Source: Candidatus Omnitrophota bacterium
Lineage (GTDB): Bacteria; Ratteibacteria; UBA8468; B48-G9; JAFGKM01
Reading direction: 5' to 3'
Assembly: GCA_022704985.1 (NCBI GenBank)
Contig: JAKJFI010000014.1
Location: 1-12,158 of the forward strand
Length of the DNA stretch: 12,158 nt
In this document: positions 307 through 12,158 of the stretch, one piece after another
Layout of the letters: every line of letters starts with the position of its first letter
Numbering within the stretch: position 1 is the stretch's first letter
Notes under the pieces: model-generated
The model's database searches: none
What the model was told of the DNA's origin: nothing
What the model saw: only the letters and a program-made list of their open reading frames with translations
Program-made: the position numbers and the translations under genes

Positions 307-350
307 GTCATTGCGAGGAATGTTTTGTATGACGAAGCAATCTCAATGAC
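307..350 (+). repeat. Dispersed palindromic repeat, family A, intergenic copy 1
   Basis: This 44-base element starts GTCATTGCGAGGA and ends GCAATCTCAATGAC, so its ends form an inverted repeat (GTCATTG/CAATGAC). The motif pair GTCATTGCGAG ... GCAATCTC is, from memory, a very common intergenic repeat in genomes of several uncultivated phyla. It has a divergent reverse-oriented relative at 3284-3356 and two relatives inside the kinase gene at 5948-5981 and 6568-6601. It has no coding capacity, and its transcribed form would fold into a hairpin. No T-run follows it, so it is not a canonical intrinsic terminator, although it could act as an mRNA stabiliser between the SDR gene and gnd. Confidence 0.75.
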
Positions 351-453: not shown

Positions 454-1944
454 ATGAATAAGGCAGATATCGGCGTAATCGGCATGGAAGTAATGGGGAA
501 GAACCTTGCGCTTAACATGGAAAGCAGAGGTTATACGGTTGCTGTTTTTAACAGGACGGAATCAAAAACTAAAGACTTCGCGGAAGGCCCGGCAAAAGGC
601 AAGAAGTTCATTCCTTGTTATGAACTTCAGAACTTCGTAACAGCATTGAAGTCACCCAGAAAGATAATGCTGATGGTAAAAGAAGGCGCTCCCGTGGATG
701 GCTTTATAGAGAAGCTTCTTCCCTTCCTTGACAAAGGGGACCTCATCATAGACGGCGGCAACTCGTTTTTCAAGGACACCATAAGAAGAAACGCCGCTCT
801 TACGGAGAAGGGCATTCTTTTCATAGGCACCGGCGTTTCCGGAGGAGAAGAGGGAGCGCTTAAAGGGCCTGCCATAATGCCGGGCGGACAGCCGGAGGCA
901 TACAAGCTCGTCGAAAAGATTTTTACGGATATCTCCGCAAAAGCCGCTGACGGAAAACCCTGCGTCGCATACATGGGACCTAACGGAGCGGGACATTTCG
1001 TTAAGACAACGCACAACGGGATAGAATACGGGGATATGCAGTTGATAGGCGAATGCGCATCGGTATTGAAAAAATCCGGCATGGATGCGAAAGAAATAGC
1101 GGAGATAATGGAAAAGTGGAACGGAAGCAACGATATACTCCGCTCCTACCTGATAGAGATAACCGCCGACAGCATGAAGGAGAAAGAGAAGTCCGGGCAG
1201 GGATACCTCGTGGATGTCGTAGCTGATATTACCCGGATGAAAGGCACCGGGACATGGACGGTTCAAAGCGCCCTCGAACTGCTGGTTCCCATTCCCACAA
1301 TCGCATCCGCCGTCTTTTCAAGGGAAATGTCTCAGGACAAGGACCTTCGACTGCAGATGGCAAAAATTCTGAAGGTTCCGGCAGGCGATAAGCTCGCGGA
1401 AGACAGGGAGAAGCTTATAGACATCGCACATGACGCCCTCTACATAGCGAAGATATCATCCTACGCCCAGGGGCTGGCACTGCTTCAGGCAGCGTCAAAG
1501 GAATACAAGTTTGACCTGAAACTGGGGGAGATTGCAAGGATATGGCGCGGCGGCTGTATCATAAGGGCGCAGTTCCTCGACGAGATAACAAAGGCTTACG
1601 AAGAAAATCCGGAGCTGCCAAACCTCATGGCGTCGCAGAAATTCTCCAGTTTCGTGAACGCAAACCTGTGGAAACTGTCCAGATTCATTGATATAGCTCA
1701 CAATGCCGGCGTGCCGGCGCTGGGCATGTCTTCTTCGTGCGACTACATACTGCAGATAGCCTCTCCCGTTATGTTCTCCGCGCAGGTCGCCGCGTTCCAG
1801 AGGGACTATTTCGGTGCGCACGGATATTTCAAGATTGGCGGGGAGAACAACCCGGAGATTATCAGGAACGCTGAAGGCAAAATGCGTGAATTCCACATTG
1901 AGTGGATGGAAGAGGGACGACCGGAAAAAGAAATAACCAAATAA
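454..1944 (+). CDS. gnd: 6-phosphogluconate dehydrogenase, decarboxylating (NADP-type)
   Basis: This cytosolic enzyme oxidises 6-phosphogluconate to ribulose 5-phosphate and CO2, making NADPH in the oxidative pentose phosphate pathway. At 496 residues it is full length (family about 470-490). Visible motifs are the dinucleotide fold GMEVMG (10-15), NRT (33-35, an NADP-preferring end of strand 2), GGNS (101-104), GVSGGEEGA (127-135, with the substrate Ser129), and the catalytic segment VKTTHNGIEYGDM with Lys184, His187, Asn188 and Glu191. RMKGTGTW (261-268) is a variant of the GQKGTGKW signature, and RDYFGAHGY near the C-terminus carries the Arg and His that reach into the partner subunit. The ATG is fixed by AAGGAG (441-446) seven bases upstream. 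It is followed after 10 bases by the phosphofructokinase gene, implying co-transcription of the two sugar-phosphate enzymes. Confidence 0.97.
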   Translation: MNKADIGVIGMEVMGKNLALNMESRGYTVAVFNRTESKTKDFAEGPAKGKKFIPCYELQNFVTALKSPRKIMLMVKEGAPVDGFIEKLLPFLDKGDLIIDGGNSFFKDTIRRNAALTEKGILFIGTGVSGGEEGALKGPAIMPGGQPEAYKLVEKIFTDISAKAADGKPCVAYMGPNGAGHFVKTTHNGIEYGDMQLIGECASVLKKSGMDAKEIAEIMEKWNGSNDILRSYLIEITADSMKEKEKSGQGYLVDVVADITRMKGTGTWTVQSALELLVPIPTIASAVFSREMSQDKDLRLQMAKILKVPAGDKLAEDREKLIDIAHDALYIAKISSYAQGLALLQAASKEYKFDLKLGEIARIWRGGCIIRAQFLDEITKAYEENPELPNLMASQKFSSFVNANLWKLSRFIDIAHNAGVPALGMSSSCDYILQIASPVMFSAQVAAFQRDYFGAHGYFKIGGENNPEIIRNAEGKMREFHIEWMEEGRPEKEITK

Positions 1945-1954
1945 GGAGCTCCTA

Positions 1955-3268
1955 ATGAAGATGAATGTGGTGATAGCGCAGAGCGGAGGTCCAACCTCTG
2001 TTATAAACAACAGCATACGGGGCGTCATAGACGCCATGGAAAAATCCGGCAGGGCCGGCAGAATATACGGCGCAAAGATGGGCATCATCGGGGTGCTGAA
2101 AGAGGAGCTTTACGACATTTCAGCGCAGAAGCCGGAAGAGATTAAACTGCTCGCCGCAACGCCTTCCGCCGGGGTCATAGGAAGTTGCCGATACAAGATA
2201 AAGAGCGACGAGGATATGGAGAGAATCGTGGAGGTCTTCAAGAAACATGACGTCGGGTATTTCTTCTACTGCGGCGGCAACGATTCAATGGACACCGCAA
2301 ACAAGGTGAGCATCCTGGCAAGAGAAAGGGGACTCAACCTGATATCCACCGGGATAGTGAAGACGATAGACAACGACGTTGGCGGCGGACTCCAGGATAA
2401 CGGCACCTTTGCAGTCTGCGACCACAACCCTGGATACGGAAGCGTTTCAAGGTACACCGCGACAAACATCCTTGAAGCGAACGAAGAAAACAAGGCAAGC
2501 TATACCAGCGACCCGGTTCTTGTAATAAGCTCTATGGGCAGAAAAATCGGTTTTATAACGGCATCGGCAAGGCTTGCCGACCCGGAACGTAAAATGCCTC
2601 TCCTGATACTTCTGCCGGAAGCTCTCAACAGGAACAAACCCGAAGAGAACCTTGAATTCATAACGGCAAGGGTTAATGAAAAGCTCGAGGAGCACGGAAG
2701 GTGCATAATAGCGATAAGCGAAGGGCTGGAGATAGGCGACCTTGAAATACTTTGCGACAACTTCGGACATGCGCAATTCGGCGCTTCCGGAAAGTCCGTT
2801 GAACAGGCGCTGATAAACCACCTCAATGGCTTGGACAGGAAAGACAGCCGCGGACGCTCTGAGAGCCGCCTTGTGCGCAAAGGAATCGCAAGATGCGAGA
2901 AACCCGGGACAAACCAGAGAAGGGCGCTTGCAACGACATCTCCGGTTGACCTTAGGGAAGCTTATGAAGTCGGGACACACGCCGCAAAAATAGCCCTGAA
3001 AGGGGAGGGCGGCTACATGTCAACGATTATCAGGGAACCCGGAAAGAAGTACGCGGTAAACTATGACAAGGTAGAGCTTGGAACGGTTGCAAACGCGGAC
3101 AGAAAGTTCCCGGAGGAATGGATATCGCAAAACAGGGTGGATGTTACGGACGAATTTATAGACTGGGCGTTTCCGCTGATAGGCGGGAAACTGCCAGTGT
3201 TTGCGGAGTTCAAGCAAATCTTCGCGTCTAAGAAATGCGAGGATTACACTCCGGCAGCATATAGATAA
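1955..3268 (+). CDS. pfp: PPi-type 6-phosphofructokinase (PfkA superfamily)
   Basis: It phosphorylates fructose 6-phosphate to the 1,6-bisphosphate, probably with pyrophosphate as donor and therefore reversibly. The 437-residue protein has the N-terminal QSGGPTSVIN (9-18), GGNDSMDT (107-114), KTIDND (136-141, with the catalytic TIDND), SMGRKIGF (193-200) and ISEG (254-257). The Asp of GGNDS (in place of Gly in ATP enzymes) and the Lys before TIDND (in place of Gly) are the two classical markers of PPi use. Oddities are Val where Pro normally precedes KTIDND, and a longer loop between TIDND and PGYGS (VGGGLQDNGTFAVCDHN, 142-158), several residues longer than I recall for short PPi-PFKs. The start follows AAGGAG (1943-1948), which overlaps the gnd stop, with 6-base spacing; a second in-frame ATG lies two codons later. 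It is likely translationally linked to gnd. Confidence 0.92.
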   Translation: MKMNVVIAQSGGPTSVINNSIRGVIDAMEKSGRAGRIYGAKMGIIGVLKEELYDISAQKPEEIKLLAATPSAGVIGSCRYKIKSDEDMERIVEVFKKHDVGYFFYCGGNDSMDTANKVSILARERGLNLISTGIVKTIDNDVGGGLQDNGTFAVCDHNPGYGSVSRYTATNILEANEENKASYTSDPVLVISSMGRKIGFITASARLADPERKMPLLILLPEALNRNKPEENLEFITARVNEKLEEHGRCIIAISEGLEIGDLEILCDNFGHAQFGASGKSVEQALINHLNGLDRKDSRGRSESRLVRKGIARCEKPGTNQRRALATTSPVDLREAYEVGTHAAKIALKGEGGYMSTIIREPGKKYAVNYDKVELGTVANADRKFPEEWISQNRVDVTDEFIDWAFPLIGGKLPVFAEFKQIFASKKCEDYTPAAYR

Positions 3269-3283
3269 CATCCACTGTTGCAT

Positions 3284-3356
3284 GTAATTGAGACTTTTTC
3301 GTCATACAAAGCATTCCTCGCACGGCAAGCGCAGGAATCCCGCTCCTCGCAATGAC
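3284..3356 (-). repeat. Dispersed palindromic repeat, family A, intergenic copy 2 (reverse orientation)
   Basis: Read on the minus strand it begins GTCATTGCGAGGAGCGGG and ends near GTCTCAATTAC, matching the ends of the 307-350 copy. Bases 3300-3321 are the reverse complement of 313-334 with one mismatch in 22, so even the variable core is shared. It carries about 30 extra bases (roughly 3322-3347) that repeat the GCGAG motif, suggesting an internal duplication or nested insertion. It fills most of the 116-base gap between the phosphofructokinase and HAD genes, which is otherwise featureless until the AAAGGAG ribosome site at 3371-3377. Confidence 0.7.
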
Positions 3357-3384
3357 GAAAAAGAAGGGACAAAGGAGAGAATAA

Positions 3385-4422
3385 ATGGACTTTGTGAAAT
3401 TGACGGACGAACAGATAAAGCACGACCCTGAACAACAGCTGAAGAACTTCAAAAGAAGCAAGGATTTCCTTGTTGCGATTGACACCGACGGATGTGTTAC
3501 CGACAACATGAACGGCAAGCAGATGCTGATATTCCATCCGCTCTACATGGAATTCTACCAGCTGTGGGGAATAGAATCTTATTTCAGGGAGGTTGCTGAA
3601 TACTACAACCTTTTTTCCGTGCAGAGAGGATGCAACAGGTTTCTTGCAATCCTGTACACCCTGCAGGCCCTGCGCAAGAGGAACGACGTTCTGAAAATCA
3701 CCCGGGAGAAAAACATCGCTCTTCCGGAAGCGGAACCCCTCAACCAGTACATTGAATACTGCGAGAAGAATAAACTCGGTCTCGGAAACCCGAGCCTGAT
3801 AAAATATCTGAATGCGAATCCCAGGAGTCTCTATCTCTACAAGCTTCTCGGATGGAGCGAAGCCGTAAACCGGATGTTTCCCTTCGTCAAAATCCCGCCG
3901 TTTGACAATGTACGCGAGTCGCTGAAGCTTATGTCGGATAAGGCAGACGTCATAATAGTCTCACAAACGCCCTATGAGGACCTTGTCAACTTCTGGCAGG
4001 AAAACAATCTTACGCCTTATATACGCGCAATCGCCGGACAGGAGATGGGGAAAAAGGGACATCATATAGAAACTGTAAAAAAGGTCTGCGGATACGAGGA
4101 TTCAAAGATTCTCATGCTTGGAGACGCCGACGGAGACCTCAAGGGCGTAAAGCAGAACAACGGGCTTTTCTACCCGGTGCCGGCAGGATACGAAAACCGG
4201 GCATGGCAGGAATTCCCTGAGTATTTTGAACAATTCACAGCTGGCAGGTATGCCGGAGAAACGGAGAAGAAACTTCTTGATGAATTCTCAAAGGTTCTTC
4301 TCACGACTCCGCCCTGGGAAAAAGACGGGTACGACCATGCGGCCGCATACAGGGAAAAACAGGAGATACGAAAGAAACTGCATGACCAACTGACACCCGA
4401 AACACCCCTGCTTATCCTTTGA
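3385..4422 (+). CDS. HAD-superfamily hydrolase (sugar-phosphatase-like)
   Basis: A soluble 345-residue protein with all four HAD motifs: motif I AIDTDGCVTD (31-40; nucleophile Asp33, acid/base Asp35), motif II VSQTP (192-196; Ser193), motif III Lys223 or Lys224 in GKKGHH, and motif IV MLGDADGD (244-251; Asp247 and Asp251 for Mg2+). About 150 residues between motifs I and II form a large helical cap, which sets substrate choice and is larger than in phosphoglycolate phosphatases. A C-terminal tail of roughly 70 residues follows the Rossmann core. It starts after AAAGGAG with 7-base spacing and ends 9 bases before the LarA-like gene, whose ribosome site overlaps its stop. Phosphatase action on a sugar or sugar-acid phosphate of the same pathway is inferred from context. 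I recognise the superfamily but not a named subfamily. Confidence 0.85.
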   Translation: MDFVKLTDEQIKHDPEQQLKNFKRSKDFLVAIDTDGCVTDNMNGKQMLIFHPLYMEFYQLWGIESYFREVAEYYNLFSVQRGCNRFLAILYTLQALRKRNDVLKITREKNIALPEAEPLNQYIEYCEKNKLGLGNPSLIKYLNANPRSLYLYKLLGWSEAVNRMFPFVKIPPFDNVRESLKLMSDKADVIIVSQTPYEDLVNFWQENNLTPYIRAIAGQEMGKKGHHIETVKKVCGYEDSKILMLGDADGDLKGVKQNNGLFYPVPAGYENRAWQEFPEYFEQFTAGRYAGETEKKLLDEFSKVLLTTPPWEKDGYDHAAAYREKQEIRKKLHDQLTPETPLLIL

Positions 4423-4431
4423 GGATGAAAA

Positions 4432-5724
4432 ATGAAAGTGCTTACCCATGAAGAATTGAAAAATGCTGTGAGCGAAAAACTTTCCTCAGGGAAAGATTTT
4501 TCCGGGAAAAAAGTACTTGTCGTTATCCCCGACACCACGCGTTCCGGCCCGACCGCCCTTATCTTCAAGTACATCCATGAGACCCTGGTCCCAGACGCCT
4601 ATAAAACTCCCTCTCCCCCACGGGATAAGGGGAAGGGCAAAGCCGCCAAAGTGGATTTCCTCATCGCACTGGGTACGCATCCCCCCATGCCCGAAGAGCG
4701 GGTCAATAGATTCCTTCAAATTACCGATGCCGACAGGAAAACAACTTTCAGTGGAACCTCCATATTCCAGCATCAGTGGGACAACCCGGGCGAACTCGTG
4801 CACATAGGAACGATATCGGCGGAAAAAATCAGGAAAATCTCCGGAGGACTTCTTTCCGAAGAGATACCTGTTACCGTCAACAAAAAGGTTTTTGAGTATG
4901 ATGAAATAATCCTTGTGGGCCCTGTATTTCCGCACGAGGTTGTGGGTTTCTCCGGCGGCTATAAGTACCTTTTCCCGGGCATTTCAGGACCTGACTTCCT
5001 GCACAGATTCCACTGGCTGGGCGCCCTGATAACCAACCCCAAGATAAACGGAACCAAGGATACCCCTGTCAGGAAAGCTCTTAACCTTGCGGCATCTTTT
5101 ATCAAAACTCCGCTTACGCTTTTATGCTACGTTGTTCAAAAAGGGGAAGTTTGCGGGTTATATGCGGGCGGCGTTGAAGCATGGTCAAAAGCGGCAGACC
5201 TCTCCGCCCAGCTGAACGTGAAATATATTGACCGACCTTACGCAACGATACTCTCGTTAGCTCCTGAAATATACGAGGACATATGGACAGCAGGCAAGTG
5301 CATGTATAAGCTTGAGCCGGTCGTGGCAGACGGCGGAACGCTCATAATATACGCGCCCCACGTGAAAGAAGTCTCACATACACACGGAAAGGATATTGAA
5401 CAGGTAGGCTACCACACAAGAGACTATTTTCTCAAGCAATTGGACAGGTTCCAGGACGTTTCCGGTTGCATAATGGCGCACTCTACACATGTGAAAGGCA
5501 TTGGCACCTATAAAGACGGCGTTGAGAAACCCAGGGTGAACGTCGTACTTGCCACCTCTATACCCGAAAAAATCTGTAAAAAGATAAATCTGGGTTACAT
5601 GGATTACAGAACAATTGACATTGAAGAATATAAAAAACGGAACGATACGCTCGTCGTTGAAAAGGCGGGCGAGATACTGTACCGCCTAAAAAATAATAAA
5701 ATACCCGATATAGACACCCTCTGA
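4432..5724 (+). CDS. LarA-family nickel-pincer hydroxyacid racemase/epimerase
   Basis: LarA-type enzymes (lactate racemase family) use a nickel-pincer nucleotide to racemise or epimerise 2-hydroxyacids; characterised homologues include malate racemase and D-gluconate 2-epimerase. The 430-residue sequence has PDTTRSGP (33-40), ALGTHPPM (79-86, His83), and FPHEVVGFSGGYKYLFPG with His168 and Lys178, followed by His194. The 10- and 16-residue spacings match His174, Lys184 (cofactor attachment) and His200 (nickel ligand) of the Lactobacillus enzyme. The start follows GAGGA (4421-4425). Residues 58-72 (KTPSPPRDKGKGKAA), just before the core strand KVDFLIALGTH, are encoded by a palindromic repeat and look like an inserted loop. 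With a mannonate-oxidoreductase-like gene and gnd nearby, an aldonate such as gluconate/mannonate is the most plausible substrate (inference). No cofactor-synthesis genes (larB, larC, larE) lie in the window. Confidence 0.85.
   Translation: MKVLTHEELKNAVSEKLSSGKDFSGKKVLVVIPDTTRSGPTALIFKYIHETLVPDAYKTPSPPRDKGKGKAAKVDFLIALGTHPPMPEERVNRFLQITDADRKTTFSGTSIFQHQWDNPGELVHIGTISAEKIRKISGGLLSEEIPVTVNKKVFEYDEIILVGPVFPHEVVGFSGGYKYLFPGISGPDFLHRFHWLGALITNPKINGTKDTPVRKALNLAASFIKTPLTLLCYVVQKGEVCGLYAGGVEAWSKAADLSAQLNVKYIDRPYATILSLAPEIYEDIWTAGKCMYKLEPVVADGGTLIIYAPHVKEVSHTHGKDIEQVGYHTRDYFLKQLDRFQDVSGCIMAHSTHVKGIGTYKDGVEKPRVNVVLATSIPEKICKKINLGYMDYRTIDIEEYKKRNDTLVVEKAGEILYRLKNNKIPDIDTL
4607..4637 (+). repeat. C-rich/G-rich palindromic repeat (family B) inside the LarA-like gene
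   Basis: CCCTCTCCCCC (4609-4619) is followed after a short spacer by AAGGGGAAGGG (4627-4637), giving an imperfect inverted repeat. It resembles the CCCTCTCCC...GGGAGAGGG dispersed repeats common between genes in many bacteria (from memory). Here it is read in frame as TPSPPRDKGKG. The composition is lysine- and proline-rich and unlike the conserved LarA sequence on either side, so an in-frame insertion is likely. Confidence 0.5.
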
Positions 5725-5725
5725 T

Positions 5726-5768
5726 GAGGAGGAACCCGGGACCCGACATCCGGGAAAACCAGAAAATA
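5726..5768 (+). promoter_or_regulatory. Strong Shine-Dalgarno separated from the kinase ATG by a hairpin
   Basis: GAGGAGGA (5726-5733) lies directly after the LarA-like stop but 34 bases before the kinase ATG at 5768. Between them CCCGG (5735-5739) and CCGGG (5750-5754) can pair with a 10-base loop. No in-frame ATG, GTG or TTG exists in this gap. Only a weak purine run (GGGAAAACCAGAAAAT) is near the ATG. The hairpin may bring the ribosome site closer, or translation may be coupled to the upstream gene. Confidence 0.35.
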
Positions 5769-7051
5769 TGGAGTTATATTCACCATATAGGATATGCCCT
5801 CTCGGAGCGCACATAGACCACCAGCTGGGTATCGTTCTTGGGACCACAATAAACAGGGGCATTCACTTCAAATTCACACCCAACAAGACGGGAAAGGTAT
5901 GTCTGCACAGTCTTGACTATAATGAGCGCATAGAATTTTCCATGCCTGTCATTGAGAGCCGAATTATGGCGCGGCAATCTCGTTCAGTAACGGATATTCC
6001 ACGGAAAACCGGGCACTGGTCCGATTATGCGCGCGGCGCCGTGTGGGTTCTCAACGAATTTTGCCATTATAGGCTTATACCCTCGCCTCAGCGGGAAGAG
6101 GGCAGGGCGAGGAGGCTTAAATACGGCATTGACGCCGAGATAAACGCAGATTTTCCGGGAGGCGGATTGAGTTCCTCCGCCGCTATCGCGATTGCCTACC
6201 TTCTTGCGCTTGAAAAGGTTAATAACCTGGATATTTCAGCCGAAGAGAATATAAAACTGGTGCAAAAACTGGAGAATGAATATATAGGCCTGAAAAACGG
6301 TATCCTTGACCAGTCGATAATTCTGCTCACCAAGCCTGTCCCCAATTCAATGGTCTATCTTGACTGTAAAACCCTTGAGCATAGACTGATTACTACTCAC
6401 CCTCACCCTAACCTCGCCCCGGCGGGGAAAGAGCAGGATAAAGAGGTCAAGTTTGAAGTGGCTGTGGTCTATTCGGGGATAGAACAGGCGCTCTCAGGCA
6501 CAGGATACAATAAACGCGTGGCAGAGTGCGGTGAAGCGGCGAGGTTGCTGATGGAAATGGCGGATAAGAGATTGCCGCGCCAAAAACCGGCTCGCAATGA
6601 TAAAATGATAAAATTGAGGGACGTGCCGGAAGAGGTCTTCCATGCGCATAAAGACAACCTCCCCGAAAACCTGAAAAAACGCGCCACCCATTTTTTTACT
6701 GAGATGGAACGGGTGCAGAAAGGCGCCGCCCTCTGGAAGAAGGGCGACCTTGAAGGATTCGGAAAACTTATGACGGAATCAGGCAAAAGCTCCATAGAAA
6801 ACTATGAGTGCGGAACGCCTGCCCTGATAAGAATATATGAACTTCTGAACTCCATAGACGGAGTCAACGGCGCACGCTTTAGCGGCGCCGGATTCCGAGG
6901 TTCCTGCATCGGGCTGATAAAACCCTCGGAAGATGTAAGAAATGCAGTAAGGAAAAAAATCGGGGAGTATTACAAAAAAGAGTTCCCGCAGTACGCCGAC
7001 AACTGTAAAATCGCTTTCTGCGCCACAAATACTGAGGTAGGTGGAATTTAA
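5768..7051 (+). CDS. GHMP kinase, galacturonokinase-like (galactokinase family)
   Basis: A GHMP-fold sugar 1-kinase of 427 residues. Motif 1 is SPYRICPLGAHIDHQLG (5-21); motif 2, the phosphate loop, is PGGGLSSSAA (130-139); the catalytic-base region is LKNGILDQS (175-183, Asp181); motif 3 is RFSGAGFRGSC (370-380). PLGAHIDHQ instead of the galactokinase GRxNLIGEHxDY, plus LDCKTLEH (198-205) and SSIENYECG (341-349), match plant galacturonokinase (GALAK) as I recall it, so D-galacturonate to its 1-phosphate is the best guess; another uronate or sugar is possible. The first motif begins at residue 5, so the N-terminus is shorter than usual. Four segments (residues 61-72, 103-116, 210-224, 267-280) are encoded by dispersed repeats and look like insertions away from the motifs. 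It is the last gene of the plus-strand block, convergent with the pilus operon 28 bases away. Confidence 0.82.
   Translation: MELYSPYRICPLGAHIDHQLGIVLGTTINRGIHFKFTPNKTGKVCLHSLDYNERIEFSMPVIESRIMARQSRSVTDIPRKTGHWSDYARGAVWVLNEFCHYRLIPSPQREEGRARRLKYGIDAEINADFPGGGLSSSAAIAIAYLLALEKVNNLDISAEENIKLVQKLENEYIGLKNGILDQSIILLTKPVPNSMVYLDCKTLEHRLITTHPHPNLAPAGKEQDKEVKFEVAVVYSGIEQALSGTGYNKRVAECGEAARLLMEMADKRLPRQKPARNDKMIKLRDVPEEVFHAHKDNLPENLKKRATHFFTEMERVQKGAALWKKGDLEGFGKLMTESGKSSIENYECGTPALIRIYELLNSIDGVNGARFSGAGFRGSCIGLIKPSEDVRNAVRKKIGEYYKKEFPQYADNCKIAFCATNTEVGGI
5948..5981 (+). repeat. Family A palindromic repeat inside the kinase gene (copy 1)
   Basis: This 34-base stretch starts GTCATTGAGAGCCG and ends GGCGCGGCAATCTC. 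It matches the reverse complement of 6568-6601 at 29 of 34 bases with no gaps, and shares the GTCATTG/GCAATCTC ends with the intergenic copy at 307-350. It is read in frame as VIESRIMARQS, a segment of the kinase between the N-terminal motif and the conserved YARGAV segment. No stop codon is introduced. Confidence 0.75.
6080..6113 (+). repeat. Family B palindromic repeat inside the kinase gene (copy 1)
   Basis: CCTCGCC (6081-6087) and GGCGAGG (6107-6113) form a perfect 7-base inverted repeat around GGGAAGAGGGCA. It encodes PSPQREEGRAR, an Arg/Pro-rich stretch just before the strand leading to the GGGLSSSAA loop. Its composition fits the CCCTC-rich repeat family also seen at 4607-4637 and 6395-6437. 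Confidence 0.5.
6395..6437 (+). repeat. Family B palindromic repeat inside the kinase gene (copy 2)
   Basis: The stretch ACTCACCCTCACCCTAACC continues into CTCGCCCCGGCGGGGAAAG, with an inner CCCCGGCGGGG palindrome. The CACCCTCACCCTAACC arm is, from memory, a hallmark of widespread intergenic repeats. It is read in frame as THPHPNLAPAGKEQ between LDCKTLEH and the VAVVYSG strand, where the plant enzyme has a shorter linker as I recall it. Confidence 0.6.
6568..6601 (-). repeat. Family A palindromic repeat inside the kinase gene (copy 2, inverted)
   Basis: Read on the minus strand it begins ATCATTGCGAGCCGG and ends GGCGCGGCAATCTC, 29 of 34 identical to 5948-5981. On the coding strand it gives RLPRQKPARND, a basic stretch between the SECQEAA-like helix (VAECGEAARLL) and the segment beginning VPEEVFHAHK. 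Being inverted, the two copies could pair within the kinase mRNA. Confidence 0.75.
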
Positions 7052-7079: not shown

Positions 7080-8513
7080 TTATTGTATTGTTGAATCAGC
7101 GTTTATTTCTTCCCAGCGATTCACGTCGAAATATATATCCAAATCTTCATCTACGGTTGGAAAGAACGGTGGAGGATCTGTAGTCGCTCTGTCATCGTAA
7201 CGGTAATCCTTCGCAAAACCTGTCAGCAGTCGCCCTGTACTCGGATTGAACGTACCCGTCAGTCCGCGGTAATTTTGGATTATACCGCCCCAAACATTCA
7301 GCGTCCCCCTCGGATTACCCCTATTATGATTCTCGACATAGAAAGATTTATCAAAAACCATAATGCTGGCATGTATTACCATATTGTTAGGAGCTGAAGA
7401 ATCAACCTCCACGCTTCTTCCGGCCACCAGCCCGAGCTGACCGGTACAACCAGGATCATCAGGGTCGAGGTTGTATCGGATGCGGTCAGTTATAATCATA
7501 TCATTTTCAGCGACTATGGTAAGTCTATCGTACACCCTCGCGTCCGCGTTCCCGGGACCCTGTATTGTAATATCACCATTCGAATATATAACCCCGTTAA
7601 AAGAAGGTGTCAGCGTTCTGGAAGTCGTAACCGTTCGCGTTCGCCATCTTCCGCTTGCATCCTTATAGTCTTCCACATAAGTGGTAGTAAGCGTATTCCC
7701 GATTTTGGTCCATGTCCGCGTCCGGTCATAGCGTCCGGTGTTATATCTTTCCGTATAGGCAAGCGTGTTTCCATCCAGCGTTATTGTAGAATCACTGGCA
7801 ATATGTATGCCGCCGCTTGCATTGGAAGCGGTCTTTAATTTATCCATATTTAAGTATTTATTCATGTCTATAGGTTGCACGCCAAGTTGATAACCTGCCC
7901 GGAAATCTGGATTGTTATACACACCGGAGTAATAGTTGAAAGAATTTGCCGTACTGGTAACCTTGCCGTGAAAAACCGGACGCCCGCGTATATTTATCCG
8001 GCTGTTGGAATGGACAGGCCCGTAAAGAACGTCATTTCCCGTAAACCAGATTGTCTCGCCTCCTTCGCCCAATTCACTATTTGTAAAGTAGGCATATCTG
8101 GCAAAACTCTTTATGACCACGTTTAAGTTTATTTGCTTCTTGACAGTTACCGTTCCTGCCCGTGTATTTGTATCGACACTGGCAACGGAAATAATCTTGT
8201 ACCCGTCGCGATTTGAAGAACTGGGAGGGATAATGGTGACATCATATTTGCCCCTCCCGAACTGTTGCTCCTCAAAAGGCTGGAAAGCTTCCCCTGTAGG
8301 AGGGACGTAAGTGGTATGTACTTCTTTTTCCAACCAAGCCTTGCCGTGTTCAACGCCTGCCTCGGCAATCCAGAAAGCGCTCGTTGGATAAATACCCTTG
8401 TGGCTAAACAATCTTTCTTCTCTCGACATGTAAAGAAAAGCAATGCCGGTAATGGCAAGTATCAATCCCAGTATTACAACCACAAAAAGCGCCAGCCCCT
8501 TTTTATTATTCAT
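7080..8513 (-). CDS. PilX-like pilus assembly protein with DUF4900 region
   Basis: The N-terminus MNNKKGLALFVVVILGLILA has a short basic leader and one hydrophobic helix (about residues 7-27) like PilX-type minor pilins. It continues with AFWIAEAGVEHGKAWL, the AEAG helix typical of PilX N-terminal domains. It lacks Glu at position +5 after the presumed Gly cleavage point, as PilX proteins often do. The remaining roughly 400 residues are a large beta-rich extracellular domain including YGPVHSNSRINIRGRPVFHG, the pattern of DUF4900. It probably acts at the pilus tip or in pseudopilus priming or adhesion. This start gives 477 residues; an in-frame ATG at 8528 would add MGVRA. Neither start has a good ribosome site, and the gene closely follows the PilW-like stop (8535), implying coupling. 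It is the last gene of the operon, 28 bases from the convergent kinase gene. Confidence 0.78.
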   Translation of the reverse strand: MNNKKGLALFVVVILGLILAITGIAFLYMSREERLFSHKGIYPTSAFWIAEAGVEHGKAWLEKEVHTTYVPPTGEAFQPFEEQQFGRGKYDVTIIPPSSSNRDGYKIISVASVDTNTRAGTVTVKKQINLNVVIKSFARYAYFTNSELGEGGETIWFTGNDVLYGPVHSNSRINIRGRPVFHGKVTSTANSFNYYSGVYNNPDFRAGYQLGVQPIDMNKYLNMDKLKTASNASGGIHIASDSTITLDGNTLAYTERYNTGRYDRTRTWTKIGNTLTTTYVEDYKDASGRWRTRTVTTSRTLTPSFNGVIYSNGDITIQGPGNADARVYDRLTIVAENDMIITDRIRYNLDPDDPGCTGQLGLVAGRSVEVDSSAPNNMVIHASIMVFDKSFYVENHNRGNPRGTLNVWGGIIQNYRGLTGTFNPSTGRLLTGFAKDYRYDDRATTDPPPFFPTVDEDLDIYFDVNRWEEINADSTIQ

Positions 8514-8534
8514 GGCGCGCACCCCCATTGCTAA

Positions 8535-9032
8535 TCACGACTTAAAATTGCGCATAACAATCGTTTTCTGCGTAGAAAAACTTTCTTCCTTTCTCTTGAG
8601 TACCACCTCTATCCCTATCACGCCGGGAACATATTCTCCCTCTTCATTCTGCTCCGGGAAATTAAAGTCAAGAGAATGCAGTATCCCGGAAATCAGTATC
8701 TCGTCTTCTTCTTCGTTAATCTTGTATTTTAAATCCTTTCCATCTTGATAAAAAACTTTTGTCCACTCAAGGTTTTTATTCTTATCTTTACGCTCCAGCT
8801 CCAGTCTCTGCCCGCTATTCAGAATTTGAGCGTTGGTAGATTCTCTGATAGCCTTTGTAAGCACTGTAAGCATGAAAGAAGATTCACCCTGCAAAACAAC
8901 CTTGTCGTTTCCCCTAATCCAGAAGTTCGTAGAAGACACTTGAATAATCCCGACTATCAGAAACAGGATACCCGCTATTACCATCGCAATCATCAATTCC
9001 ACCAAACTGAATCCCTTTTTCCCCTTCAACAT
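8535..9032 (-). CDS. Prepilin, PilW/GspJ-like minor (pseudo)pilin
   Basis: A 165-residue class III prepilin: leader MLKGKKG, cleavage before FSLVELMIAM, with the conserved Glu at +5 and a hydrophobic alpha-helix to about residue 27. The mature part, with SSFMLTVLTKAIRESTNAQI and a C-terminal beta region (VIGIEVVLKRKEE), fits the PilW/GspJ type, which caps the growing pilus or pseudopilus together with GspI/K-like partners. It would be processed by a PilD-type prepilin peptidase, not encoded here. It begins 13 bases after the preceding prepilin gene with a weak GGGAA ribosome site, and its stop lies 6-21 bases before the PilX-like start candidates. The J/W type rather than H/U is inferred from length and gene order. 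Confidence 0.85.
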   Translation of the reverse strand: MLKGKKGFSLVELMIAMVIAGILFLIVGIIQVSSTNFWIRGNDKVVLQGESSFMLTVLTKAIRESTNAQILNSGQRLELERKDKNKNLEWTKVFYQDGKDLKYKINEEEDEILISGILHSLDFNFPEQNEEGEYVPGVIGIEVVLKRKEESFSTQKTIVMRNFKS

Positions 9033-9045
9033 AATATTCCCGTGG

Positions 9046-9438
9046 TTATCGAATAGAAATTATCGTCTTCAAATCTATCTTCTGTTCTTGCCCTTTCTCG
9101 GTCCATGTAACTTCAACTTCAACTATTTTCATGAAATTTTCCAAATCCTGCAAATCTTCTTCATAATCCTCTAAATCTTCCACAACTGTAGTTTTGCGTT
9201 TGAAAGACATGCCGCCTACAGATATCTGCTCATTACTATCCACTATCTCACTATACGGAATACGCCTCAACTCTTCCAGTTTTTGCTCTGCCAGTTCTCT
9301 TGCCTGCCTGTAACGACCAGAAAGGTCAATATCCATCCGACCGTATGAAAATAAAGCCATGCCAGCCAACATTATAATAAGAAAAATGGCTATTGCGATT
9401 AGAAGCTCAACAAGCGTATCTCCATTTTTATGTTTCAT
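9046..9438 (-). CDS. Prepilin, PilV/GspI-like minor (pseudo)pilin
   Basis: A 130-residue prepilin with leader MKHKNG followed by DTLVELLIAIAIFLIIM: Gly at -1, Glu at +5 and a hydrophobic helix to about residue 28. The first mature residue would be Asp instead of the usual Phe or Met. The ARELAEQKLEELRRIPY segment, the helix after the membrane part containing AEQKLEELR, is characteristic of PilV/GspI proteins. The short beta domain ends KIDLKTIISIR. No Shine-Dalgarno sequence is visible upstream of the ATG; the upstream 68-base gap holds a repeat-like sequence. Its place between the secretin and the PilW-like gene supports a minor pilin role. Confidence 0.85.
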   Translation of the reverse strand: MKHKNGDTLVELLIAIAIFLIIMLAGMALFSYGRMDIDLSGRYRQARELAEQKLEELRRIPYSEIVDSNEQISVGGMSFKRKTTVVEDLEDYEEDLQDLENFMKIVEVEVTWTEKGQEQKIDLKTIISIR

Positions 9439-9452
9439 ATAGTTGAAAGGAA

Positions 9453-9499
9453 GGGGGAGTAGCGCCCCATAATTCAGGATTAATATTTGACCCCACTCC
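9453..9499 (-). repeat. Repeat-like inverted sequence in the secretin-prepilin gap
   Basis: On the minus strand GGAGTGGGGTCAAATATTAA runs to GGGGCGCTACTCC; GGAGT (9499-9495) and ACTCC (9460-9456) form the ends. The GGGGTCAAATnTT core resembles, from memory, palindromes linked to REP-associated tyrosine transposases. It has no downstream T-run. It occupies most of the 68-base gap and leaves the next gene without a recognisable ribosome site. One copy only is seen here, so its status as a repeat is unproven. Confidence 0.35.
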
Positions 9500-9506
9500 T
9501 TTTAAT

Positions 9507-10814
9507 TCAATTTTCAGGCAGTATCCGTCTTTTTTCTACCTCAGCAACCACTTTTGCTTCTTCGGCTGTGATAATCTTAGGAGTCAGAAATATTACAAGG
9601 TCGGTCTTTTCAGAGTTCGATGCACGGTTGTTGAATAAGAACGGCAGTATATCGCCAAGAAATGGCATCTTGTTCGTAGTCTTTCTCGTATCCTGCCTTA
9701 ATAATCCGCCTATCACCAGCGTATCGCCATTCTTGATTATGACGCTTGTCTTTACTCTCCTCTCGTAGGTATCCACGGCAGGAGGGTCAACGAAAACTGT
9801 TGATTTTACGGCAGAACTGACGACGGGTTCAACTTCGAGAGTTATATAACCTTCCTGATTTATTTTTGGAACGACCTTCAAGGCGACACCTACATCCCGG
9901 TATTCGTATTCTGTTATTATCCTCTGGCCTTCGGTTTCAGTAACTTTCGGCGCAACCGCCGTATTTTTGATTATTTTTATCTCAGCAGGCTTATCGTTGA
10001 GGGTGGTAATTCTCGGATTCGCAAGGATGTTCGCCTTACCTTCAGACTGGAGAAGACGCAGGTTTGCGGTCAACGCCTGCAATGAAAGAGTGCCGAGAAT
10101 GAACTGCGGGTCGGAGGTTGCCGTTGTTGCTCTCGGACCGACAATCTTCCTTGAATAACTTTCCTGCCACGGGAAGGAAGTATCCAAGGCAGGGCCTGAA
10201 AAACCGGCTTCGACATTCCAGGCTATTCCAAGGTCCTTAATCGCATCTTCCGACAACTCTACAAGGACAGCCTCTATGGATACCTGTGAAACCATCTTAT
10301 CAAGCGATGAAATTATATCGTTTATCTGCTTGAGATTTTCATCCGTATCCCTGACAGTTATGCTGTTAGTTCTCGTATCCCGAATTATGCTTCCGCCTGT
10401 ACTCAAAAGGGGAGCAAGTAATTCTCCCAGAGTATCCGCTTTTGCATACTGCAGGAAAAAAGTCCGGCTTGACAACGGTGGAGGCGGCAAAAGAGGAATG
10501 GAAGATTTCTTTACAAGATATATTTCAGTCCCCTCTATTTTTTCACGGTATAAACCGTTCGCTTTCAATATGACATCCACTACCTGCGTCCTATCCGCGT
10601 CTTTCAGATAAACGCTTACCGGGTAACTGTTGAGTTCGGTACTGGCAATCAAATTAATCCCTGTTTCCTGAGTCAAAGTTTGAAGAACGCTTTTTAATTC
10701 CGCACGATAAAAATTAAGCGTAATTTCTTCTGCTCCAAAAGAGAAAATCGCAGGGATAAAAACATAAACAAAAAAGGTGCTCATTGCCAATACTGTAAAA
10801 AGATGTTTTTTCAT
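9507..10814 (-). CDS. pilQ: Outer-membrane secretin (PilQ/GspD family), compact form
   Basis: This forms the multimeric outer-membrane pore for the pilus or pseudopilus. A signal peptide (1-28, MKKHLFTVLA... ending FSFGA) is followed by an N0/STN-type domain (about 30-103), a proline linker (PLLPPPPLSS, 107-116), an N1-type domain (about 117-175) and the secretin beta-barrel domain (about 178-413). The last contains LLQSEGKANILANPRITTLN (253-272) and the signature region MPFLGDILPFLFNNR (383-397), slightly different from the usual VPxLGxIPxLGxLF. At 435 residues it is much smaller than proteobacterial PilQ, with no AMIN domain. I chose the ATG at 10814, preceded by AGGAG with 10-base spacing, because it gives a standard signal peptide. 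An in-frame ATG at 10862 overlaps the pilP stop (ATGA) and would add 16 residues. It is coupled to pilP. Confidence 0.92.
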   Translation of the reverse strand: MKKHLFTVLAMSTFFVYVFIPAIFSFGAEEITLNFYRAELKSVLQTLTQETGINLIASTELNSYPVSVYLKDADRTQVVDVILKANGLYREKIEGTEIYLVKKSSIPLLPPPPLSSRTFFLQYAKADTLGELLAPLLSTGGSIIRDTRTNSITVRDTDENLKQINDIISSLDKMVSQVSIEAVLVELSEDAIKDLGIAWNVEAGFSGPALDTSFPWQESYSRKIVGPRATTATSDPQFILGTLSLQALTANLRLLQSEGKANILANPRITTLNDKPAEIKIIKNTAVAPKVTETEGQRIITEYEYRDVGVALKVVPKINQEGYITLEVEPVVSSAVKSTVFVDPPAVDTYERRVKTSVIIKNGDTLVIGGLLRQDTRKTTNKMPFLGDILPFLFNNRASNSEKTDLVIFLTPKIITAEEAKVVAEVEKRRILPEN

Positions 10815-10858
10815 TTTTTCATATCTCCTGTTTGGAGTTATTCTCATGCCTCTCTTCC

Positions 10859-11410
10859 TCATTGTGCTTCAATTTTACCTGTGTTTTTAACGTCGCCAGA
10901 CTTTTTCGCAGGCAGTTCATTTTCAGCCTTATCAGACGGTTTGCTTTCTTCAAACTCATCCTCTGATTTCACTTCCTGACCAGCCATACTAACAGTAAAG
11001 AAAGTATTATCACATTGTAACAGGACATTGTCATCAATAATCCTGCGAATTCGACAATTTTCTATAAAATCGCCTTCTGCCTTCACCTCACCATTTATTA
11101 TGGCAAATGATTTCTTACTGCCGTGCAAAATGCCCGAAACAATAAATTCCTGCGCTTTTGCCTCTTCCACCGGCTCACTATCAGAAACAGAGACTATCCT
11201 GGGCGTTATCAATGGAACAAACGGGTCTCTCCTGACTCTGGAATATCCGGTCTTGCGCGCTTCGAGACCGGATATGTCATTCAAGGATTTCTTCAACGCT
11301 GTTATGTTGCCCTCAATCTTCTCTACGTCAAGTTCTCCCGATATCAGAAACCCCGAAAACATCAGTATTAAAATCGCGGTATAATCAAATCTCAGTTTTT
11401 TTCTTTCCAT
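10859..11410 (-). CDS. pilP: PilP/GspC-like inner-membrane alignment protein
   Basis: A 183-residue protein with an N-terminal membrane segment (about 11-24, TAILILMFSGFLIS), a linker, the RRDPFVPL motif (60-67) found in PilP and GspC proteins, and a beta domain (about 88-142, FIVSGILHGSKKSFAIINGE ... FFTVSM) corresponding to the HR/PilP domain that contacts the secretin N0 domain. The last 40 residues are charged and Lys/Glu-rich, likely disordered. Classical PilP is a lipoprotein, but no lipobox cysteine is present here, so anchoring is by the N-terminal helix as in GspC. It begins inside the end of pilO (26-base overlap, different frame) and ends overlapping or just before the secretin gene. 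PilP identity rests on RDPF, size and gene order. Confidence 0.8.
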   Translation of the reverse strand: MERKKLRFDYTAILILMFSGFLISGELDVEKIEGNITALKKSLNDISGLEARKTGYSRVRRDPFVPLITPRIVSVSDSEPVEEAKAQEFIVSGILHGSKKSFAIINGEVKAEGDFIENCRIRRIIDDNVLLQCDNTFFTVSMAGQEVKSEDEFEESKPSDKAENELPAKKSGDVKNTGKIEAQ

Positions 11411-11969
11411 CTACGGCTTCCTTTTTTATCCCCAGGAAAGTCAAATCGTATCTTGCGCCCTCATCGGCATCCTTGTCCCGGATAATAGTAATATCTTCCA
11501 GAACAAGAAACCTCTGGCTGCGTTCTATGGAATCTATCATGCTAAGGACATCTGGAAAACCGCCGGTGAGCAATACTTTCCAGGTGTAATAAAGTTTATC
11601 CTTGCTGGAACTCTTGCTTCCCGAACGGCGCTCAACTGTTGATACCTGAATCAGGTCGAGGTTTGCCTTTTTTGCCATCGTGTAAATATAGTTGTAAAAG
11701 GTAAGACCTGCATCAATACCCTGTCCGTCAGTCCATGTAAAATTTTCTGTTTTTTTATTTGCCTCTTTTATCACATTATCCAGTGAATTGATAAACTCCG
11801 GGGTGGCGGTTATCATCATATAGTCGTATTCAACCCTTGCCTTCTCATCCTTGCATTTGGCTATCGTCTTGTTCTGCGGAACAATGAGGAAGTTGTGAAC
11901 AAGCTGCGACACCACGATATATGAGAGAAGCATCCATATCATATACTTCTTTATGAGATTTACAAGCAT
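11385..11969 (-). CDS. pilO: PilO-like pilus alignment protein
   Basis: A bitopic inner-membrane protein of 194 residues: a short cytoplasmic N-terminus, one transmembrane helix (about 10-30, MIWMLLSYIVVSQLVHNFLI), a helical periplasmic stretch, then an alpha/beta ferredoxin-like domain (about 85-185) including KVLLTGGFPDVLSMIDSIER and ARYDLTFLGI. This is the PilO (GspM-like) plan: it pairs with PilN and binds PilP to join the inner-membrane motor platform to the secretin. The start is set by GGAGG seven bases before the ATG at 11969, which overlaps the stop of the upstream gene by one base (TAATG). A longer reading from 11999 would extend into that gene and lacks a ribosome site. Sequence similarity to PilO is weak, as usual in this family; gene order carries much of the call. 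Confidence 0.8.
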   Translation of the reverse strand: MLVNLIKKYMIWMLLSYIVVSQLVHNFLIVPQNKTIAKCKDEKARVEYDYMMITATPEFINSLDNVIKEANKKTENFTWTDGQGIDAGLTFYNYIYTMAKKANLDLIQVSTVERRSGSKSSSKDKLYYTWKVLLTGGFPDVLSMIDSIERSQRFLVLEDITIIRDKDADEGARYDLTFLGIKKEAVDGKKKTEI

Positions 11970-12158
11970 TAATCGACCTCCGCACCCTTCAATTCGCACT
12001 CTATATTAAAGGCCCTGACATCCGTAACGCCTTTCATTTCCTTCCTGACATCTTTCAGAGAAACCCCGTTGAAAAGCGGGCCTCTGTTCATATTCCTTAC
12101 AAATCTGTCTATTGCCTCTCTCTCGTTGACCATGCCGGGAAAAACGTAACCCCTTATC
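11969..12158 (-). CDS. pilN: PilN-like pilus assembly protein (C-terminal part)
   Basis: The frame is open from the right edge and ends with TAA at 11971-11969, giving the last 62 residues, ending FNIECELKGAEVD. The visible part includes REAIDRFVRNMNRGPLFNGV and MKGVTDVRAFNIECEL, the closing alpha-beta-beta portion of the PilN/GspL-type ferredoxin-like periplasmic domain. The N-terminal cytoplasmic tail that binds PilM and the transmembrane helix are outside the window. The stop overlaps the pilO ATG by one base, implying translational coupling, and pilM would be expected further upstream. Identification rests on position directly before pilO plus this C-terminal pattern. Confidence 0.72.
   Translation of the reverse strand, partial: IRGYVFPGMVNEREAIDRFVRNMNRGPLFNGVSLKDVRKEMKGVTDVRAFNIECELKGAEVD

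Follow-up and report, generated by a model that had tools for sequence, protein, structure and literature searches.

Can short palindromic repeats settle inside conserved enzyme genes and be translated as part of the product? This question is raised by a 12,158-nt stretch of DNA from a Candidatus Omnitrophota bacterium (contig JAKJFI010000014.1; hereafter the window), in which a gene for a LarA-superfamily (nickel-pincer racemase/epimerase-like) enzyme and the adjacent gene for a galactokinase-like GHMP kinase carry repeat units of two families, A and B. A sequence-only reading of the window had placed five units in these genes and likened them to Rickettsia palindromic elements (RPEs), which occur in intergenic DNA and, in frame, within protein-coding genes (PMC3733652, PMC1950309; statements on published repeats refer to the accessible parts of the papers cited). 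The checks that we ran support this likeness and none refuted it. We consider it very probable that the units are repeats of the repetitive extragenic palindromic (REP) or miniature inverted-repeat transposable element (MITE) kind and that, like RPEs, they are retained as translated loops, probably disordered, which the proteins tolerate.

Two repeat families lie within two adjacent enzyme genes

Family A units consist of GTCATTGCGAG, a variable inner part and then GGCAATCTC or a close form of it; family B units consist of CCCTCACCC, a short spacer, CCTCTCCC and then a mirrored half. Units here are ~30–45 nt long. Allowing at most one mismatch, GTCATTGCGAG occurs four times in the window, against 0.23 expected, a count that none of 200 shuffles reaches; GGCAATCTC occurs twice, against 0.09 expected. 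Family profiles (hidden Markov models) were built from 84 A units and 82 B units, all from other genomes and with the window excluded. The best scores in 100 first-order Markov shuffles were 11.1 bits for A and 7.6 bits for B, and all five genic units score higher. Chance resemblance was rejected because both pattern counts and profile scores exceed those of shuffles.

The LarA-superfamily gene (4432–5724, plus strand; Pfam Lar_N, E 1.2e-20) hosts one family B unit, in a 15-residue insert (residues 57–71; 4600–4644, plus strand) that scores 12.1 bits at 4599–4637 and 10.9 bits at 4608–4634 on the other strand. The kinase gene (5768–7051, plus strand; Pfam GHMP_kinases_N/C) hosts four units, the segments around them all being read on the plus strand. 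Insert 1 (residues 60–74; 5945–5989) contains a forward family A unit at 5948–5981 (21.8 bits), insert 2 (residues 97–116; 6056–6115) a family B unit at 6074–6107 (19.2 bits), insert 3 (residues 210–225; 6395–6442) a family B unit at 6400–6431 (15.8 bits), and loop 4 (residues 267–279; 6566–6604) a reverse family A unit at 6568–6600 (29.9 bits). The first and fourth kinase units are inverted copies of each other (5949–5981 and 6568–6600, 88% over 33 nt). Thus independently trained profiles, patterns and inverted copies bear out the five units as first described, and all five lie within open reading frames, consistent with the claim that they are translated without a stop. Open-frame richness as a general adaptation of the repeats was rejected: A units have 4.62 open frames each, slightly above the 4.07 of shuffled letters, and B units have 3.48, below the 3.84 of shuffled letters.

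Family A had also been reported at two places between genes. The unit at 307–350 (plus strand; 21.9 bits at 307–344) is clear. The other, a composite of family A pieces at 3284–3356 (minus strand), is only marginal because its profile score of 11.8 bits at 3330–3356 compares with 11.1 bits for the best A shuffle; 3283–3322 is an inverted copy of 312–351 (88%).

The units lengthen loops that are short in most relatives

Loop lengths were compared among the best 120 relatives of each protein (of 6172 matches for LarA and 8000 for the kinase), window protein included. The LarA loop has 29 residues in the window protein versus 14–15 in 116 of the 120, a gain of 15. Kinase loop 1 has 31 residues versus 16–17 in 117 (about +15), and the window protein is alone at this length, two others having 22. 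Loop 2 has 29 versus 13–14 in 117 (about +16), and loop 3 has 29 versus 16–17 in 104 (about +13). Loop 4, with 27 residues versus 19–21 in 87 (about +7), is naturally variable. Because 30 of the 120 relatives have at least 24 residues there, the alignment identifies this unit as an element within a variable loop, not a clean insertion, and its absence from homologues is ambiguous. The anticipated absence of the inserts from most relatives, a trait shared with RPEs, is therefore found with the exception of this ambiguous loop.

Which kinase loops are filled, and how, varies among relatives, those labelled P being known as protein sequences only. P0002 carries a longer, repeated peptide in loop 2. 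In loop 3, P0002, P0003, P0005, and P0007 have 57 to 93 residues with differing repeat-like peptides, and P0004 is bare. An LPRxxxARND-like peptide in loop 4 is also present in P0002, P0003, P0005, P0011, and P0012. The LarA insert of P0122 differs in sequence. The window protein, being one of the 26 aligned kinases, necessarily shares the residues invariant among them.

In the predicted kinase structure, a galactokinase-like fold that resembles solved galactokinases (e.g. 2dei), the mean predicted local distance difference test score (pLDDT) is 83.9. Six segments of at least three residues fall below 50, all in the four inserts, one of them extending one residue past insert 1. The LarA model has a mean pLDDT of 76.7, with the insert below 50 at residues 60–67. 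The models suggest that the inserts are probably floppy, disordered loops.

Family B recurs in frame inside genes of some related genomes

To place the units in a wider context, we searched the 35 genomes assigned to the class of G001 (the genome of locus L001), several of which are recorded as Omnitrophota; a phylum-level search covers the same 35. Recurrence and genic counts thus come from relatives' genomes rather than from the window's own. The A pattern was found in 10 and the B pattern in 17 of the 35, and the reversed-pattern control gave no match for A and one for B. Family B forms close clusters in G002 and G003 (285 and 71 pattern matches), with many units ~40–50 bases apart, e.g. 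G002:C49:30896-31254. Several family A units of G005 (e.g. at loci L084, L101, L104, and L110) hold a nested GGACAGGCGTCTCGCCTGTCC-type palindrome.

A copy was counted as genic if it lay in frame between two coding-like 150-nt flanks in our own hexamer test, in which a stop-free frame is part of the definition. Family B is genic in 9 of 19 assessable copies in G005 (the genome of locus L006, recorded as Omnitrophota), 7 of 21 in G031, and 4 of 8 in G036, together 20 of 48. Family A is genic in 1/77 copies in G005, 0/27 in G023, 0/42 in G034, 0/3 in G001, and 0/3 in G036, a total of 1/152. Random positions in the same loci are genic in 53–61% of cases, a local baseline as the loci were chosen around repeats. 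Against this baseline the B rate does not differ in G005 (p 0.65) or in G036 (p 0.72, with 8 copies only) and differs slightly in G031 (p 0.047); within G005, the genic rates of B and A differ strongly (p 6e-7). Between same-strand coding flanks, B copies are in frame in 23 cases and frame-broken in three (p 9e-9 against one third), the bias to be expected if a functional product is selected for. The expectation that the units recur elsewhere in genomes, including inside genes, thus held for both families as to recurrence and for B in some genomes as to genes, but hardly for genic A in the relatives examined.

Copies near a stretch end were excluded (A: 7/84 in G005, 1/43 in G034, and 1/1 in G031; B: 1/20 in G005, 2/32 in G023, 1/20 in G021, and 2/10 in G036). 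For A, the examined loci held 27 units in G023 (36 genome-wide by a longer pattern) and 43 in G034 (155 by pattern); for B, they held 10 of 13 in G001, and the genic counts leave out the B-richest genomes, G002 and G003. A looser preliminary test (open frame with at least 30 coding-like residues on each side), which preceded the full set of B loci and is superseded, gave 2/84 in G005 and 1/3 in G001 for A, and 8/12 in G005, 3/8 in G023, 1/7 in G031, and 0/8 in G001 for B.

Twenty genic proteins from G005, G023, and G031 were compared with NCBIfam, four from G036 being left out. In 12, a single family match spans the unit: MobA, NnrE, MnmE, Fmt, LeuRS twice, IspG twice, UvrA, Pta, AroD, and CinA. 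In four others (HypD, LolC/E, a second Pta, and an AddA-like protein) the match is split into two stretches, of which only the larger is located for the first three. The LarA protein of G005 contains a B unit too, at a different site from that in the window protein, and in its translation LarA residues flank the unit. The units of LeuRS, IspG, and Pta sit at matching positions in G005 and G031; the IspG pieces of these two genomes are 80–85% identical. IspG had a match in 29 of the 35 genomes; among the 13 proteins aligned, one loop holds extra peptides in G005, G031, and G036, is slightly longer in G032, and lacks them in nine.

Two further loci showed unusual arrangements. In L152 (G023), at ~868–1668, the loop of a B unit inside a deacetylase-like reading frame encloses a third palindrome-like sequence; the peptide PSPLRQDFGGQA in kinase loop 3 of P0007 is similar to that of this nested palindrome. 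A 951-residue frame at L282:3543-6395 (G031) has DUF167 and M16 peptidase-like parts, with the B unit, judged by eye, before an apparent second peptidase start; this is perhaps a gene fusion through the repeat.

Tolerated insertion probably accounts for the units better than its alternatives

The five units can be understood as belonging to two families of short interspersed palindromic (REP/MITE-like) repeats, copies of which would insert as DNA into genes by some route, or arise there. Copies would survive if they fell in a loop, left the reading frame intact and contained no in-frame stop; harmful ones would be lost. The resulting peptide of ~15 residues, in many cases Pro-, Gly-, Ser-, Arg- and Lys-rich, would be tolerated as a neutral disordered loop of a functional enzyme. 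A loop with one unit might then take further units or tandem copies and so become a recurrent site. Movement of the units, the 'selfish' element of this account, is something we infer.

Several observations weigh against it. Family B is depleted in or absent from genes in G023 (3/30), G001 (0/10), and G021 (0/19), together 3/59, strongly so relative to random positions. Family A does not keep frame (one copy in frame, six broken), and the six broken copies may simply lie between same-strand neighboring genes. Among the 20 genic proteins, deacetylase L152, AddB L281, and M16 L282 were not seen to be spanned by a family match, and the NCBIfam match of the G005 LarA ends before the unit. The peptides of P0002, P0003, P0005, and P0007 were assigned to repeats by eye, from protein only. 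Modelling had been proposed as a check that the inserts are surface loops; it agrees for the kinase, whose inserts are low-confidence loops, but is less telling for LarA, in which five further segments besides the insert are also of low confidence. Most genic copies are weak RNA hairpins (z –0.1 to –2.4 versus shuffles). Finally, 12 Y1_Tnp loci, of 39 Y1_Tnp places, contain no exact A or B motif except one bare GGCAATCTC.

We regard it as improbable that the loops grew by replication slippage or drift in low-complexity sequence and that their likeness to dispersed repeats is superficial. The wide variation of loop 4 and the tandem repetition in the loops of P0002 and P0005 are in line with such growth, but the units match profiles derived from dispersed copies elsewhere, above the best of 100 shuffles, and slippage would have to produce two unrelated families in one gene, with copies 1 and 4 mutually inverted. 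No more probable is a function of the genic units, either as mRNA hairpins that tune operon expression or stability or as peptides that mediate binding. The segment 6076–6116 folds better than most shuffles (z –2.4) and 6565–6604 somewhat (z –1.8), and the corresponding positions of the LeuRS, IspG, and Pta units in G005 and G031 would fit a function; however, the remaining three genic copies fold no better than shuffles, the sequence, number and apparent family of units differ between relatives at the same loop, and the host proteins are unrelated. Strong RNA hairpins were not seen in genic copies except at 6076–6116. The intergenic copies give z –4.45 (305–353) and z –1.0. Least probable, to the point of being hard to credit, is that the units are skipped or removed, e.g. 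by ribosome bypassing, leaving the finished enzymes free of them. An insert might harm core enzymes, to which some hosts (LeuRS, UvrA) belong, yet the 23-to-3 frame keeping of B, with copies stop-free by test definition, would be needless if the units were skipped.

Beyond the tolerated-insertion account, a bolder proposal is possible but doubtful: in one Omnitrophota-type branch, family B would enter genes nearly as freely as the rest of the chromosome (20/48), seeding core enzymes with disordered Pro/Gly-rich loops at recurrent sites in a natural, ongoing insertion scan of the proteome, driven by a mobilizing process not yet described. If in-frame insertion is real, it is no mere oddity of host-bound Rickettsia but a common event in some uncultured bacteria, one that reaches core genes such as LeuRS, IspG, and UvrA. 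Natural pairs of orthologues, one with and one without an insert, would then allow a direct test of whether such peptides cost the cell anything, benefit it or do neither. Such loops are also to be reckoned with in gene calling and structure prediction on metagenome proteins.

The repeats resemble RPEs in behavior and described REPs in part

The likeness to RPEs (RPE-1, RPE-2, RPE-4, RPE-6, and others) is drawn on behavior: both are short palindromes with an intergenic and an in-frame genic habit. Occurrence both between genes and in frame in conserved genes was found for B in G005, G031, G036, and G023 and for A in the window, and was not found in G001 or G021. Unlike the accessible accounts of RPEs, the units here occur in different bacteria, two unrelated families share one enzyme gene (the window kinase), and B is genic near chance in two genomes whereas A hardly ever is.

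Di Nocera et al. (2013) include RPE-4 and RPE-6 among CGTC-tagged REPs and catalogue, for several species, GTAG and CGTC REPs that lie inside genes, including uvrA, recB, and those of tRNA synthetases; uvrA of O. terrae carries a GTAG REP, double insertions in one gene are known, and recB of two Xanthomonas has a REP at about the same site (PMC3733652). The five phyla listed there, in the part accessible, as having CGTC REPs do not include Omnitrophota. Like these REPs, family A mostly begins with TGTC followed by AT, and ends with AT and a short C-rich tail, and no dedicated transposase turned up near it. A terminal CGTC, TGTC, or CCTC tag is present: GTC is preceded by T or C in 112 of 142 units. 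However, CGTC REPs are described with an 8–9-bp stem, a 4–5-nt loop and a mostly CCA tail, whereas the contiguous end stem of A is 5 bp in 138 of 142 units, its inner part is longer and variable, and its tail is CTC in 73, CCC in 35, and CCA in 5 of the 142. Membership of A in the CGTC REP superfamily was rejected on stem and tail, although the tag fits. Family B resembles the described GTAG REPs in genes in that units are translated inside repair, tRNA-synthetase, and other core genes, but the pattern itself, to which the search for a tag was confined, contains neither GTAG nor CGTC. Enterobacterial RU-1/ERIC-type repeats of 103–168 bp are also found inside genes (Delihas, 2007; PMC2759123). 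They too are described as small mobile sequences that add coding sequence, and differ in length from the ~30–45-nt units here.

The REP-associated tyrosine transposase (RAYT) flanked by repeats that marks the REPtron of GTAG REPs was not encountered in the 12 loci examined of the 39 Y1_Tnp places. Y1_Tnp genes are present in all seven genomes with at least five A units versus 16 of the 28 others (p 0.07), an association that is suggestive at most.

The literature searched, mostly without subscription journals, yielded no report of such repeats in these bacteria. The first reading had called the locus a striking independent case. Two families, and four units in one enzyme, do set it apart, but the published catalogue of intragenic REPs makes it less singular (PMC3733652, as far as accessible). 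The principle is already known; new are the lineage, the two families in one enzyme, the family-specific tolerance and the recurrent insertion loops.

Genes of the window

The host genes end a run that encodes 6-phosphogluconate dehydrogenase, a pyrophosphate-type phosphofructokinase, a HAD-like protein, the LarA-superfamily enzyme and the kinase. The LarA protein scores 174.6 bits against NCBIfam NF052594, under its cut-off of 500, and the kinase 171.8 bits against TIGR00131, also under cut-off. The nearest named relatives of both are proteins of Omnitrophica and Ratteibacteria metagenome-assembled genomes. Within 454–7051, the nearest model of the LarA-superfamily enzyme is a putative hexonate epimerase, matched below cut-off. 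To judge from sequence similarity, the combination of LarA-like enzyme, galactokinase-like kinase, pyrophosphate-dependent phosphofructokinase and 6-phosphogluconate dehydrogenase suggests a sugar or sugar-acid route. On the minus strand, 7080–11999 contains type IV pilus assembly-like genes, with prepilin-like proteins and a PilQ-like secretin, as judged by eye from their translations.

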